Below, piece after piece: positions 25,084-31,288 of a stretch of DNA of 64,000 nucleotides (the first letter of the stretch is position 1; each line of letters starts with the position of its first letter). The stretch lies in contig NZ_SMAF01000001.1 in assembly GCF_004343305.1 (NCBI RefSeq), forward strand, positions 124,001 to 188,000. Reading direction: 5' to 3'. A program made the position numbers and the translations under genes. The DNA comes from Pseudofulvimonas gallinarii (GTDB taxonomy: Bacteria > Pseudomonadota > Gammaproteobacteria > Xanthomonadales > UBA2363). The notes beneath the pieces are model-generated. The model ran no database searches, was not told the DNA's origin, and saw only the letters and a list, made by a program, of their open reading frames with translations.

Positions 25084-26922
25084 TCAGGGTTCGAAATCGT
25101 CGGCGAAAATCCGGTCACCAGCGCCCGCAGGCGCCATCCCGAATCCGGCGCGGAGCCAGTCGTTGATCGCGCCCGCGGTCAGGGCGGGATTCCAGTTTGC
25201 GCGCGACTGACCGTGGACCGCCGTCAGGAAGTCGTCGAAATCCGTTCCCAGGCCGAGGTGCTGCACGTAGCCTTCGATATCGCGGCCGGGTTCCGGGAAC
25301 TGGGGCAGTTCGACACTGGCCTGGCTGTCGCCGCTACCGGCGATCCACTGCGCGAGGCTGGCATTGGCGCCATTGATGCGGAACAAGGCGTTCGCCGGCG
25401 CCAGCGAGTGGTAGCGGTTCCGTCCTGCAAAGCCGTAGCCACCGGTAGACAGGCTGACCAGTGGCGTAGCCGTGGGTGACTGCACGATATTCCCGGCGAA
25501 CAGGACATCGTCGACGGCACCGCCGTTGCGGAAGTCGATCAAGGGCGAGCTTCCGCTGCGGATGTTGGCGATCACGTTGCCATAGACAAGGATGGTGCCG
25601 ATGGCGTCGGCCGTGTGCACCTTGAGCATCCATGTATTGGTGATCGGCGTACGCTGGTGGATCATCAAGTTTCGGCTGATGCTGCCGCTGTGCCAGTCGA
25701 TCACTTCGATCCCCCAGGCCAGGGAACGGTTCGTCGGCCTCGACCGGCCGGGGTCGATGATCACGTTGTCGCGCAGCGTGACATCCGCGAACCGCTTCGG
25801 ACCGAATGGCGCATTGCCCCCCAGGCTGATGGCCTGCTCGCTGTCGGCAAACAGGTTGTCTTCGACCAGCAGCGATGTCGACATCCTTTCCGGCGCGTCC
25901 TCCGCCGTCCACTTGTTGCCGATCGAGGAGGGACGCAGGAAAAGGTTGCGCTGGAAGACGACGTTCCGCGAGCCGCCGAAATAGGTGTTGTGGTTGTAGA
26001 TGGTCGCCTGTCCCCCTTCCGGATCATCGTTGCCGGATTGCGACTGGATCCGCCAGCCGTTGTGATCGAACAGGTTTTCCTGCAGCAGTATGCCGCCCAG
26101 ATTGTGCGGCGCATGTCCGGAGCTCTTGAACCAGAGGCCCTGCGAGTGGCCCGAAGACTTGTAGTTGCCGGAGATGATGCTGCGGCGGATCACCACGCGC
26201 ACCGCCGGCTCGTTCGGCGCGTTGCCATTGATGTCGTTGACGGCATAGCTTCGGAATACACAGTCTTCGATCAGGAGGTCGCGCACCTGGCGCGGATCGC
26301 CGGCGAACGAGGTGGTGAAGGAGAAGCCCGACGATCCTTCGTAACCGGTAAAGAACGCGCCATCGGTATCGCGCGTATGTGCCCAGAATTTCAGGCCGAC
26401 AACCGCCTGGTTCACCGGCTGGTAAGTGGCCAGTCCCCTGTTGGCGCCCGTTCGCAGCTCGGGCCGCGGCCCCTCGTCCCATGCCGTGGCGACCATGCGT
26501 TCGGAGGGCGATCGTCCGCGACGTGTGGGCAATGATTCCTCCCAGACCCCGCCAGCCCGCAGCAGCAGCCAATCCGGCGCATCCTGGCGCAGCTGCGCCT
26601 GGGCAGCGGCCAGCGTACGGAAGGCACGGACATTTCCGGCCGGCCGCGTCGGATCCGGACCGACGAGGGGACTGGATGGCAGGTGGTACTCGCCGGTGGC
26701 ATCGTTGCCCGCTGTCGAATCGACGTAGATGAGGCGACTGTCGGACGCGGGGACCAGGATCGACCAGCCTTCACTGTCCTGGTCTGGCAGATGGAAGTCG
26801 GCGACCGACACGGCGAGGGCATTGCCGCTGGCCAGGCCAGACAAGGCAAGCACGAGGGCGACGAGGGATCGACCACCTGGGGTGGGTGAAGCCTCGCCGG
26901 CATTGCGAACAATGGCAAACAT
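25084..26922 (-). CDS. secreted right-handed beta-helix protein, paralogue 1
   Basis: A 612-residue exported protein with a signal peptide up to about residue 37 (cleavage after NALAVS). The N-terminal block (DSRLIYVDSTAGND, then PSSPLVGPDPTRPAG) matches the opening seen in parallel beta-helix enzymes. Repeated short strands ending in N follow (ENLFDHNGWRI, NHNTYFGGSRNVVFQRN, DNLFADSEQ, DNVIIDPGRSRP), typical of right-handed beta-helix coils. The C-terminus carries a conserved block (GQSRANWNPALTAGAIN) and ends RIFADDFEP. It is the most divergent of three tandem paralogues. A pectate-lyase-like or adhesive role is possible; no catalytic residue can be identified. Confidence 0.82.
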   Translation of the reverse strand: MFAIVRNAGEASPTPGGRSLVALVLALSGLASGNALAVSVADFHLPDQDSEGWSILVPASDSRLIYVDSTAGNDATGEYHLPSSPLVGPDPTRPAGNVRAFRTLAAAQAQLRQDAPDWLLLRAGGVWEESLPTRRGRSPSERMVATAWDEGPRPELRTGANRGLATYQPVNQAVVGLKFWAHTRDTDGAFFTGYEGSSGFSFTTSFAGDPRQVRDLLIEDCVFRSYAVNDINGNAPNEPAVRVVIRRSIISGNYKSSGHSQGLWFKSSGHAPHNLGGILLQENLFDHNGWRIQSQSGNDDPEGGQATIYNHNTYFGGSRNVVFQRNLFLRPSSIGNKWTAEDAPERMSTSLLVEDNLFADSEQAISLGGNAPFGPKRFADVTLRDNVIIDPGRSRPTNRSLAWGIEVIDWHSGSISRNLMIHQRTPITNTWMLKVHTADAIGTILVYGNVIANIRSGSSPLIDFRNGGAVDDVLFAGNIVQSPTATPLVSLSTGGYGFAGRNRYHSLAPANALFRINGANASLAQWIAGSGDSQASVELPQFPEPGRDIEGYVQHLGLGTDFDDFLTAVHGQSRANWNPALTAGAINDWLRAGFGMAPAGAGDRIFADDFEP

Positions 26923-27126
26923 GAGATCAGGTTCCTTTTCGTGCCCGTTGCGAAAGACCGGCCGGACCGGCCACTGATCGGGCGCCGCAGCGTCCAGGTC
27001 GAGCGATTCGCAGCTTGCAGATGAAAGACCGGCCTGCAGCCGCCAACAGTCCGGCCAACGATTCCACGCCAGATTCAGGACCCTGCCTGTTCCTGCGTCC
27101 TTTACAGGACACGGTCCAGCGCGGAA

Positions 27127-27154
27127 GCGTTCGCCACTGGGCCGTGGCGAACGC
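27127..27154 (-). terminator. hairpin between beta-helix paralogues 2 and 1
   Basis: An 11-bp perfect inverted repeat (GCGTTCGCCAC and GTGGCGAACGC) with a 6-nt loop lies 20 nt after the stop of paralogue 2 and upstream of paralogue 1. It lacks a U-run, so it may attenuate rather than end transcription, and paralogue 1 may have its own promoter in the remaining 200 bp. Confidence 0.5.
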
Positions 27155-27174
27155 TCAAGGTCGATTCGGGTGGT

Positions 27175-29040
27175 TCAAGGCTGGAAGCCGTCCGCGAAGA
27201 TCACGTCACCGCCCGTCTGCGGCATGCCGAACCCAGCGCGCAGCCAGTCGTTGATGACGCCGGCGGTCAGGGCCGGATTCCAGCTCGACCGCGACTGGCC
27301 ATACACCGCCGTCAGGAAATCCTCGAATCCGGATCCCAGTCCGACATGGGCCACGTAGGTTTCCAGATCGCGCTCAGGGGCCGGAAATCCGATCGGGGCG
27401 ACTGTCGCGCCGGTGTCCCCGCTGGCAGCGATCCACTCCGGAAGGCCGACGCGGTCGCCATTCACACGGAACATGCGCTCCTCGTCGGAAGTGGAGTGGT
27501 AGAGGTTGTTGCCACTGAACACATAGCCGCCCGGCTGCAGTGCCACGAGCGGCGTGGCCGTGGGTGACTGCACGACGTTGTTGTGGAACAGCACGTTTTC
27601 GACGTTGTTGCCGTTGAGCAGGCGGACGATGCCGTCGCTACCCCCGCGCATGTTTCCGAAGACGTTGTTCTCCACCAGGATGGTTCCGGCCTGGCCGATG
27701 GCCACCACGGCCAGGCCGTAGACGTTGCTCATCGCCGCGCGCTGGTGGATGAACAGATTGCCGGTGATCTCGCCGGTATGCCAGTCCTTGGCCTCGACGC
27801 TCCAGGACAGCGAGCGATTGGTCGGTCGTGTCCGGCCAATGTCGGTGAACACGTTGTTGCGGATGCCGATGCGATCGAAGCGGAAGGGTTCGTCCTCATT
27901 GCCGCCGATACTGATGCCGATTTCACCTTCGGCATAGAGGTTGTCCTCGATGACGATGTTTTCGCTCAGGGAGCCGTCATCGTGGTAGGCCGTCCACTTG
28001 TTGCCGATGGATGAGGCGCGCAGGAACAGGTTGCGCTGGAAGAGGATGTTCCGGGTGCTGGAGAAGTAGGTGTTGTGGTTGAAGATGGTGGCCTGCCCAT
28101 CTTCCTTGCCGTTGTTGCTGGTCGACTGGATGCGCCAGCCATTATGGTCGAACAGGTTTTCCTGCAGCATGAGGACGGGTACCGCGGTCGTCTGGCCACG
28201 GCCGGTGTGGTACAGCCCCTGCGAATGCCCCTCTCCCGCGGATTTGAAGTTGCGCGAGATGATGCTGCGTCGGATCACGATGCGCTCGACCGGTTCACGC
28301 GGCAGTGCGCCGTTGATGCCGTTGCTCTCATACGAACGGAAGAAGCAGTCCTCGATCAGCACATTGCGCACCTTGCCACTCTGGCCGGGCGGCGTACTGA
28401 TGAAACTGAATCCGTCGCTGCCGTCATAGCTGGTGAAGAACGGGCCCTCAGGGTCGCGGGTGTGCGCCCAGAACCGGAGACCGATGATGGCCAGGTTCTC
28501 CGGGTAATTGCCGCTGATGCCCCGCCCCGTTCCTGTCCGCAGTTCAGGACGCGCCCCGTCGCCCCAGGATGTGATTACCGAGCGTTCGGCTGGAGAGCGG
28601 CCCCGCCGGATGGGCAGGGACTCCTGCCAGACCCGGCCGGCACGCAGGAGCATCCAGTCCGGCTGCCCGTTGCGAACCTGCTGGATCGCCGCGGAAAGTG
28701 TCCGGAACGCCTGCACCTGGCCCACCGGCCGGGTCGGATCCGGTCCGATCTGCGGGCTGGAAGGGCTGTAGACCTGGCCGTTGCCATCGCTGCCGTTCGT
28801 GGAATCGACGTAGATCAGCCGGCTGTCGACCGAGGGCGTGAGGACGGACCAGCCCTGCGCGTCCTGCGGCGGCAGGTTGAAGTCGGCAGCGGTCAGCTCC
28901 CCGCCTCCGGCCCAGGCCGTGCCAGCGGACAGGACGAAGAGACCGAAGAACAGGGCAAGCAGATGGCGTACGGCACGCGCCGGCTGCGGGCCAAGAGGCG
29001 CCCGGACCCGTTCCGGCATGGACGATGTCTTGCTGGTCAT
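27175..29040 (-). CDS. secreted right-handed beta-helix protein, paralogue 2
   Basis: A 621-residue exported protein. The longer frame back to 29106 is rejected because GAGGAAAG stands just before the ATG at 29040 (MTSKTSSMPERV). A basic N-terminus is followed by a hydrophobic core and cleavage near TAWAGG. It has the same three-part layout as its neighbours: an N-terminal DSRLIYVDSTNGSDG motif, about fourteen short N-rich beta-helix turns, and the C-terminal GQSRSSWNPALTAGVIN block ending VIFADGFQP. It is most similar to paralogue 3 along its whole length. The product should be outside the inner membrane; its ligand or substrate is unknown. Confidence 0.82.
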   Translation of the reverse strand: MTSKTSSMPERVRAPLGPQPARAVRHLLALFFGLFVLSAGTAWAGGGELTAADFNLPPQDAQGWSVLTPSVDSRLIYVDSTNGSDGNGQVYSPSSPQIGPDPTRPVGQVQAFRTLSAAIQQVRNGQPDWMLLRAGRVWQESLPIRRGRSPAERSVITSWGDGARPELRTGTGRGISGNYPENLAIIGLRFWAHTRDPEGPFFTSYDGSDGFSFISTPPGQSGKVRNVLIEDCFFRSYESNGINGALPREPVERIVIRRSIISRNFKSAGEGHSQGLYHTGRGQTTAVPVLMLQENLFDHNGWRIQSTSNNGKEDGQATIFNHNTYFSSTRNILFQRNLFLRASSIGNKWTAYHDDGSLSENIVIEDNLYAEGEIGISIGGNEDEPFRFDRIGIRNNVFTDIGRTRPTNRSLSWSVEAKDWHTGEITGNLFIHQRAAMSNVYGLAVVAIGQAGTILVENNVFGNMRGGSDGIVRLLNGNNVENVLFHNNVVQSPTATPLVALQPGGYVFSGNNLYHSTSDEERMFRVNGDRVGLPEWIAASGDTGATVAPIGFPAPERDLETYVAHVGLGSGFEDFLTAVYGQSRSSWNPALTAGVINDWLRAGFGMPQTGGDVIFADGFQP

Positions 29041-29102: not shown

Positions 29103-30944
29103 TCAATGCTGGAAGCCGTGCGCGAAGATACGGTCACCTGCGCCAGCGGGCGGCATGCCGAAACCTCCACGCAGCCAGTCGTTGATCACGCCTGCGGTCA
29201 GTGCCGGGTTCCAGTTCGCGCGTGACTGTCCGTAGATGGCGGCAAGGAAATCGTCAAAGCCGGAGCCCATGCCGACGTGTTCGACGTAGGTTTCCAGGTC
29301 GCGCTGCGGTGCCGGGAACTCGATCGCAGCGGTGGTCGCCCCGGTATCGCCAGTAGCCGTGATCCACTGAGCCAGGCTCGTGTTGGTGCCGTTGATGCGG
29401 AACACCCGGTCCGCCGCAGCCGCGGTGTGGTAGCGGTTCGGGCCCGAAAAGGAATAACCGCCAGGTGTCAGTGAGACCACCGCGGAACTGGTCGGTGTCT
29501 GCACGGTATTGCCCTGGAACAGCACGTCGTCGATGACGCTGCCGTGCTGCAACTGGACGATACCGCCGCCCGTTCCGGCCCGGATGTTGGCCATCACGTT
29601 GTCCTGGATCAGGATCGTGCCGGTCTCGTCCGGTGACCTCACCTGGATCGCCCAGGTGTTGGTGATCGGCGTTCGCTGGTGGATCAGCAGGTTGCGCTGG
29701 ATCGTACCGCTTTCCCAGTCGATGGCCTCGATGCCCCAGGACAGCGAACGGTTGGTAGGACGGCTGCGACCGATGTCGGTAAACACGTTGTCATGGATGT
29801 GGATGTCCTTGAATCGGCGCGGACCGGCGGTGTTTCCGCCCATGCTGATACCGATCTCGCCCTCGGCGTAGAGGTTGTCCTCGAGGACGATGTTCGTGGC
29901 GACGTAATCCGGCGTCGGACCCCCCGTCCACTTGGTGCCGATGGACGAGGCACGCAGGAACATGTTGCGCTGGAACAGCACGTTGCGCGGTTCGGAGAAG
30001 TAGGTGTTGTGGTTGAAGATCGTCGCCTGGCCGTGATCGATCTGGTTGTTGGCGTTGATCGACTGGATGCGCCAGCCGTTGTGGTCGAACAGGTTCTCCT
30101 GCAGCAGGATCGTCGCCACCGTGTTGCCTTCATGGCTGCCGCCGGCGTGGTATAGGCCCTGGGAATGGCCGTCGGTGTGCTTGAAGTTGCGGGAGACGAT
30201 GCTGCGGCGGAGGACGAAGCGGACGATGGGTTCGCGCCCTGCCCCACCGGTCAGGACGTTGTTGGTATAGGAACGGAAGAAGCAGTCCTCGATCAGCACG
30301 TCGCGCACCTGGTTGGCGTTCCCGGGCGCAGAGGTGATGAAGTCGAATCCGGTGCTGCCGGCGTAATCGGTGAAGTGTGGCCCTTCCGGGTCGCGGGTAT
30401 GGGCCCAGAAGCGCAGGCCGATGATCGCCTGGTTTTCCGGATTGCGTGCCGTGATGCCGCGTTGGGCACCGGTGCGCAGTTCCGGCCTGGGCCCCTCGCC
30501 CCAAGACGTCGCGACCATGCGCTCGGAGGGCGATCGGCCACGACGGGTGGGCAGGGATTCCTGCCAGACCCGACCGGCCCGCAGGAGCAGCCAGTCCGGC
30601 TCGCGGTCGCGCAGATGCTGGGCGGCCGCGGACAGCGTGCGGAACGCCTGCACCTGACCGACCGGACGCGTCGGGTCCGGCCCGATCTGCGGGCTCGAAG
30701 GGGAATAGACCTGTCCGTTGCCGTCATTGCCGCCGGTGGAATCAACGTAGACCAGGCGGCTGTCTGTCGAGGGCGTGAGGATCGACCAGCCCTGGCTGTC
30801 CTGCGGTGGAAGATTGAAGTCGGCGACCGAAATCACGTCGCCGGCATGGGCGAGGCCCGTGGCCGCCAGCACCAGCGCCAGACCGGCCAGCTGGCGCCGG
30901 ATCGACTGCAATGCCTTCCGGGTAGAACGATGGATATGAGTCAT
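29103..30944 (-). CDS. secreted right-handed beta-helix protein, paralogue 3 (operon-proximal)
   Basis: A 613-residue exported protein whose signal peptide ends near GLAHAGD. It is the first of the three paralogues downstream of the regulator. A strong AGGGGG lies about 10 nt before the ATG. Features match the others: DSRLVYVDSTGGNDGNG, a run of beta-helix coils (ENLFDHNGWRI, NHNTYFSEPRNVLFQRN, EDNLYAEGEIGIS), and the C-terminal block GQSRANWNPALTAGVIN with RIFAHGFQH. Paralogue 2 follows after 62 nt, so they are probably cotranscribed. The family is not one I can name more precisely than right-handed beta-helix. Confidence 0.82.
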   Translation of the reverse strand: MTHIHRSTRKALQSIRRQLAGLALVLAATGLAHAGDVISVADFNLPPQDSQGWSILTPSTDSRLVYVDSTGGNDGNGQVYSPSSPQIGPDPTRPVGQVQAFRTLSAAAQHLRDREPDWLLLRAGRVWQESLPTRRGRSPSERMVATSWGEGPRPELRTGAQRGITARNPENQAIIGLRFWAHTRDPEGPHFTDYAGSTGFDFITSAPGNANQVRDVLIEDCFFRSYTNNVLTGGAGREPIVRFVLRRSIVSRNFKHTDGHSQGLYHAGGSHEGNTVATILLQENLFDHNGWRIQSINANNQIDHGQATIFNHNTYFSEPRNVLFQRNMFLRASSIGTKWTGGPTPDYVATNIVLEDNLYAEGEIGISMGGNTAGPRRFKDIHIHDNVFTDIGRSRPTNRSLSWGIEAIDWESGTIQRNLLIHQRTPITNTWAIQVRSPDETGTILIQDNVMANIRAGTGGGIVQLQHGSVIDDVLFQGNTVQTPTSSAVVSLTPGGYSFSGPNRYHTAAAADRVFRINGTNTSLAQWITATGDTGATTAAIEFPAPQRDLETYVEHVGMGSGFDDFLAAIYGQSRANWNPALTAGVINDWLRGGFGMPPAGAGDRIFAHGFQH

Positions 30945-31118
30945 GGTGCGTGATCCCCCTGATTACGCGGTGTGGTGTCGGCAGCGGGTTGGGGCGCACG
31001 GAGCCCGGGTGCGAGCCAGCCCCCACGGCTGCGGTCGCATCACGGGACAGCCCGGATGGCTCCGGTGTCGTCTCCAACCCGGGACGAGACTGGCCCGGCC
31101 ATGCCACCACTGCTTGAG

Positions 31119-31151
31119 GGTTGCATCAGGTAAGAATCAGGAATTGATCAG
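31119..31151 (-). promoter_or_regulatory. three CTGAT repeats at exact 11-bp spacing (array 1)
   Basis: On the minus strand the repeats read CTGATCAATTC, CTGATTCTTAC and CTGATGCAACC in succession without a gap. They lie about 175 bp upstream of the first beta-helix gene. Direct repeats with an 11-bp period are the known target form of OmpR/PhoB and ToxR/TcpP-type winged-helix regulators (TcpP uses TGTAA-N6-TGTAA), and such a regulator is encoded next door. The repeats are plain in the sequence; binding is inferred. Confidence 0.65.
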
Positions 31152-31255
31152 CAACACGCCCTCATGGGCGCCGCTCAGCCATCGCCGGTTTGCAGGAGAC
31201 GCGGGAGTGGCCAGCCGGATATCCGGTTGCGCTGCGGCCGAGCCGGAGCACGGTG

Positions 31256-31288
31256 CGACACATCAGTTGGCGATCAGGATTCGATCAG
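31256..31288 (-). promoter_or_regulatory. three CTGAT repeats at exact 11-bp spacing (array 2)
   Basis: On the minus strand: CTGATCGAATC, CTGATCGCCAA, CTGATGTGTCG. The first repeat overlaps the stop codon of the regulator gene (31285-31287). It is a second triad with the same period and core as array 1, and the two are 137 bp apart, about 13 helical turns. That spacing would suit cooperative or looped binding. Confidence 0.6.

Follow-up and report, generated by a model that had tools for sequence, protein, structure and literature searches.

The sequence analysed here, called the window, is the whole 64-kb stretch of DNA, from a genome labelled G000 (families, genera, other genomes and loci carry f-, g-, G- and L-labels below). 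On its minus strand, the gene for a winged-helix regulator, P0001, is followed in tandem by the genes of three paralogous secreted proteins, P0002 to P0004, and a gap of 340 bp runs from the P0001 stop codon to the ATG of P0002, the first of these predicted beta-helix genes. The gap contains two arrays of the form CTGAT-N6-CTGAT-N6-CTGAT, letter for letter as the original prediction described them. Read on the minus strand, the units of array 1 are CTGATCAATTC-CTGATTCTTAC-CTGATGCAACC, with GCAACC after the last CTGAT core, and those of array 2 are CTGATCGAATC-CTGATCGCCAA-CTGATGTGTCG, with GTGTCG after the last core. The 137 bp said to separate the arrays is the distance between their starts, and their ends are 180 bp (array 1) and 317 bp (array 2) from the P0002 ATG. 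Beyond array 1, at 31114-31118, stands CTCAA, a weak fourth unit. A spacer A is common to both arrays and invariant in a hand-picked alignment of arrays. The overlap of array 2 with the end of the regulator gene is also real, since the TGA stop lies inside its first CTGAT core (31284-31288). Coordinates are collected in Table 1, together with the families of target proteins found next to arrays elsewhere.

Table 1. Features of the window and protein families encoded beside arrays.
Feature	Position or locus	Strand	Description
Array 1	31125..31151	minus	three exact CTGAT cores, period 11
Array 2	31262..31288	minus	three exact CTGAT cores, period 11
P0001	31285..33786	minus	833 aa; winged helix, putative TM and TPR-like parts; proposed reader of the arrays
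P0002	29103..30944	minus	613 aa secreted protein; first gene after the arrays; tail DRIFAHGFQH
P0003	27175..29106	minus	paralogue, 65% identical to P0002; tail DVIFADGFQP
P0004	25084..26922	minus	paralogue, 63% identical to P0002; tail DRIFADDFEP
Tail coding positions	25084-25100, 27175-27191, 29103-29120	minus	
DUF285 proteins	L052-L055, L129		array targets
Esterases	L051, L119		array targets
Vps10/BNR proteins	L057, L059		array targets
G8/CEMIP beta-helix protein	L071		array target in the window's own genome

The regulator, the arrays and the secreted proteins

Residues 33-106 of P0001 match the Trans_reg_C winged helix (PF00486, E = 1.4 × 10−10), and among solved chains this domain is nearest to CadC (5ju7, E = 2.3 × 10−12) and then to PhoB, the PhoB chains including the PhoB-DNA complex 1gxp. 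The best NCBIfam match of the protein is the CadC model, at a score far below the curated cutoff. There is one clear hydrophobic stretch at about residues 167-190, taken by eye as a transmembrane (TM) helix, and the C-terminal part is TPR-like, with an RPN7 match below Pfam's cutoff; a Pfam domain search gave no match to a BTAD domain. The winged-helix regulator claimed for the position directly upstream of the gap is accordingly present, and by these matches P0001 appears to be a one-component regulator of the CadC/ToxR kind, whose C-terminal part we propose as a periplasmic sensor.

Exact CTGAT triads occur only twice in the whole 3.45-Mb genome, both times in this gap, and two of the three 5-mer triads of period 11 found within the window are these arrays. 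A pattern search of the window with up to 2 mismatches returned 3 matches against 0.06 expected. None of 20000 dinucleotide-preserving shuffles of the gap contained two triads of one core and period, while 109 of the 20000 contained any triad, in agreement with the claim that six phased repeats are very unlikely by chance. At up to 2 mismatches there is one further site in this genome, G000:C2:32538-32575 (L071), which lies 87 bp upstream of the gene for another secreted protein, a G8/CEMIP beta-helix, and which contains the unit CTGATCGAATC, identical to the first unit of array 2.

The three paralogues have no Pfam match. The P0002 model is rich in short strands, with a low-confidence mean pLDDT of 60, and Foldseek aligns it weakly with the surface adhesin PfbA and with polysaccharide-active beta-helices, so that P0002 is predicted, at low confidence, to be a right-handed beta-helix; an enzyme assignment was dropped because the mean pLDDT is only 60. 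The first ATG of P0003 is at about 29040. All three proteins end in IFA[DH][GD]F[QE], an ending found in no other open reading frame (ORF) of the window. The ending [IV]Fxx[GADS]F[EQ] is found in 8 of the 383 ORFs of the array loci, each of the 8 next to an array; outside the window, such IFxxGFE tails belong to secreted proteins at L071, L049 and L122-L126. The tail resembles an undescribed sorting or attachment signal. A separate observation concerns the 252-bp gap between P0003 and P0004, where no arrays were found: it holds a perfect 12-bp inverted repeat with a 6-nt loop and without a T run (27126-27155), possibly a processing site or terminator.

Recurrence by regulator type

Across 398 genomes of the order there are 26 exact triads, and a control with the pattern reversed gives 3. 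Class-wide, in 369 genomes almost all from other orders, there are 5 (the window's own two excluded) against 6 controls. Since the class-wide count is at background, the enrichment belongs to this order. The triads of G005, G287 and G376 are plain 11-bp tandem duplications and were set aside as background, as were the exact triads of f2, f4 and f9 and those found class-wide, which are tandem duplications or coding sequence. The arrays of f7, f8 and f11 have diverged spacers. Allowing one mismatch, the 33 genomes of f8 have 35 sites against 5 controls, and the 9 genomes of f11 have 7 against 0; arrays are missing from most f2 and f12 genomes.

Outside G000, 6 of the 20 loci fetched (L051, L054, L055, L056, L057 and L058) have a CadC/ToxR-like wHTH regulator ORF within 300 bp of the array, the sensors of these regulators being TPR or beta-propeller, and within 2 kb a regulator is found at L052 and at L067, of which the latter is a tandem duplicate. 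The P0001 winged helix shares only about 20-30% identity with the winged helices of other array-associated regulators. The beta-helix homologues of Luteimonas have neither a triad nor a winged-helix regulator gene within the flanks examined. In f2 and f12, the regulators that resemble P0001 (about 33%, mostly 29-37% identical) have no CTGAT triads, in a search whose upstream and downstream labels ignore locus orientation, and no general enrichment of 11-bp repeats. Because these f2 and f12 relatives and the Luteimonas loci are without triads, conservation is by regulator type and not by orthologous locus. The expectation that relatives would have triads near similar regulators was thus borne out in f7, f8 and f11 and failed at orthologous loci.

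A search that assumed no motif was made in family f8, where winged-helix domains were searched by protein, with an alignment drawn in part from loci first found by their triad, and the 600 bp upstream of 70 genes was taken. CTGAT triads with up to 2 mismatches stand before 11 of the 70, against a mean of 0.41 for 59 permuted cores, and with strands taken into account all 11 share the strand of the regulator and lie between −87 and −293; other periods give 0-2 triads. Five of these arrays (L170, L171, L172, L175 and L188) were found by protein similarity alone. Of the 1280 combinations of a four-letter core (256 in all) with a period of 9-13, CTGA at period 11 scores highest, at 15 of 70 genes against a mean of 0.44 for cores at that period, and exact CTGA arrays of period 11 stand before 8 of 70. 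The arrays are often of four units, and the fifth core base varies (T, A or C). The OmpR/PhoB-type geometry that had been proposed is supported both by the three exact 11-bp units occurring twice in the window and by the way period 11 stands out from 9-13 in f8.

Family f8 is also a large expansion of membrane-bound regulators, its genomes (about 2-4.7 Mb) having 4 to 28 winged-helix genes each, many with TPR or PD40 sensors. One winged-helix gene with an array upstream, L122:4159-5118, has a C-terminal histidine-phosphatase match (PF00300), an unusual domain pairing that is possibly a frame or assembly artefact.

Promoter phase and targets

Seen in target orientation, an f8 array has the sequence (ATCAG-N6)3 running toward whichever gene lies opposite the regulator. 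With a −10-like hexamer defined as T-A-N-N-N-T with at least 4/6 matches to TATAAT, 21 of 43 arrays have one 21-22 bp past the last ATCAG (16 at 21, 5 at 22), against a background of 0.66 per offset, and there is no peak in the CTGAT direction. The associated P of 1.6 × 10−18 overstates the number of independent events, as some of the f8 loci are mutually related, and nearly all arrays with a phased −10 are from f8. They comprise at least three unrelated groups, namely the DUF285 genes, the esterase genes next to PD40 regulators, and the genes of tail-bearing proteins at L122-L126. The five arrays found by protein similarity alone obey the phase, four at 21 and one at 32, which is one unit further. 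With the −10 at 21-22 bp, the last repeat falls at about −38 to −34, in place of the −35 box, and, judged from sequence, the arrangement in f8 and f11 matches promoters that depend on an activator such as PhoB or a SARP.

The targets of the arrays are mostly secreted proteins, often with the IFxxGFE tail; those outside the families of Table 1 are other proteins, of unknown family. Many arrays (L049, L053, L059, L123, L124 and L126) precede genes for secreted proteins where no regulator gene adjoins.

The window's own case differs from this arrangement. There and at L071, the target gene is on the strand that reads CTGAT, whereas the f8 and f11 targets are on the opposite one, and the window's regulator and targets are in tandem, as against divergent in f8. 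In the ATCAG direction, the window arrays and L071 lack a −10 at the 21-22 bp distance, and neither a sigma-70 promoter nor a terminator was found in the gap, in line with the original remark that no clear −10 follows the arrays. The operator is shared with other families; in this genome the window arrays may work from a more distant upstream position, present their other face to polymerase, or repress.

Reading of the arrays and comparison with known systems

Across the families, the repeat pattern is very probably the landing site of regulators of the CadC/ToxR kind that switch on secreted surface proteins. For the window, we consider it likely that the arrays are operators of a membrane-anchored regulator of this kind, with P0001 the best candidate, and that they serve to activate the three beta-helix genes. 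Several winged-helix domains would then bind head to tail along a single face of the helix, each taking one 11-bp unit, with the CTGA core in the major groove and the A/T-rich 3' half beneath the wing. The trigger would be activation of the periplasmic TPR-like sensor part, upon which the bound regulator would recruit RNA polymerase and the three secreted proteins would be expressed. Weighing against this reading are the reversed polarity and missing phased −10 of the window arrays, the low identity between the P0001 winged helix and those beside other arrays, and the lack of CTGAT triads at the closest relatives of P0001, in f2 and f12.

It is rather unlikely that the arrays, as operators of this type, are read by another winged-helix protein, either an OmpR/PhoB response regulator or a CadC-like paralogue, which would control a secreted-protein regulon and to which P0001 would be a mere neighbour. 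The many arrays before secreted proteins with no regulator gene alongside would fit such a reader, as would the single core shared by adjacent regulators that are of three or more types and whose winged helices resemble each other weakly, and the presence of several other winged-helix regulator genes in G000. Against it, the arrays are enriched upstream of CadC-like genes themselves, and a universal response regulator is disfavoured by the lack of arrays in most f2 and f12 genomes. Moreover, among the winged-helix regulator loci examined in G000 only that of P0001 has arrays, for which reason P0001 is favoured as the reader.

Repressor or autoregulatory sites, for example ones that block read-through from the regulator into the beta-helix genes, are an unlikely account of the arrays. 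They would agree with the position of array 2 on the stop codon and of both arrays in a possible read-through transcript, with the lack of a visible promoter, and with the polarity opposite to that of f8 targets. In f8 and f11, however, the last repeat takes the place of the −35 region as in activator-dependent promoters, and regulators of the CadC class are mainly activators (PMC5430869). Although some exact triads in the order are plain 11-bp duplications, a functionless tandem repeat, arisen by chance or mutation, is very improbable here, given that a single gap holds two arrays with the same core, the outcome of the shuffles, the recurrence of the same operator elsewhere at a fixed phase to the −10, and the differing spacers, which indicate that the window units are not recent duplications.

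In the Pho box, the direct repeats have a step of 11 bp and the core CTGTCAT, and each takes up one winged helix, arranged head to tail. The arrays share with it the period and the initial CTG, and the P0001 winged helix matches PhoB, but their core is CTGAT, the candidate regulators are predicted membrane-bound one-component proteins and not response regulators, and the f8 target repeats read ATCAG toward the −10. Tandem operator recognition is known for winged helices of the PhoB/OmpR type (PMC5430869). With CadC, ToxR and TcpP, the regulators have in common an N-terminal winged helix and, as predicted, a TM helix and a periplasmic sensor. The TcpP site, TGTAA-N6-TGTAA, has an 11-bp step and the ToxR site, TNAAA-N5-TNAAA, a 10-bp step (PMC4829181), while CadC has two sites with head-to-head TTAxxxxT (PMC5430869). 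The geometry attributed to TcpP is thus the same 11-bp step; the arrays were rejected as TcpP sites, only the step being equal and the core differing from TGTAA, and they have three to four CTGA repeats where the TcpP and ToxR sites have two A/T-rich ones. In SARP/AfsR promoters of Streptomyces, 11-bp direct repeats overlap the −35 element (PMC10936776). An OmpR-type winged helix and 11-bp direct repeats are found in both cases, and large SARP members also have TPR, but SARP repeats end 8 bp from the −10 as against 21-22 bp in f8, and SARPs are soluble, with a BTA domain, whereas the regulators here are predicted membrane proteins. P0001 was rejected as a SARP on the BTAD result and on this f8 distance.

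The arrays thus appear to be a tandem winged-helix operator whose core, and whose wide association with a known kind of regulator, seem to be new. The literature searched, which covered few subscription journals and is therefore weak evidence of novelty, gave no description of CTGA-N7 arrays or of the IFxxGFE tail. We tentatively entertain a broader scheme, in which CTGA-N7 arrays would be a family-level operator code for many membrane-bound winged-helix regulators, placing three or four domains at the −35 of surface-protein promoters, with the polarity reversed in the window's genus; the regulated set would be defined together with the IFxxGFE tail, which suggests one export or display programme.

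For membrane-tethered regulators of the ToxR/CadC kind, operators have been only poorly defined, well-studied species included. Three or four CTGA-N7 repeats at a fixed distance from the −10, standing beside many such regulators, make the sites, targets and cooperativity of the class directly testable, and in bacteria that are harmless. The arrays also join uncharacterised regulators to uncharacterised secreted surface proteins with a common C-terminal tail. In genus g54, two P0001-like regulators (L142 in G363 and L145 in G385) have next to them perfect 11-bp triads with a different core, GCGCGAAT in three copies, which are perhaps a different operator of the same geometry.
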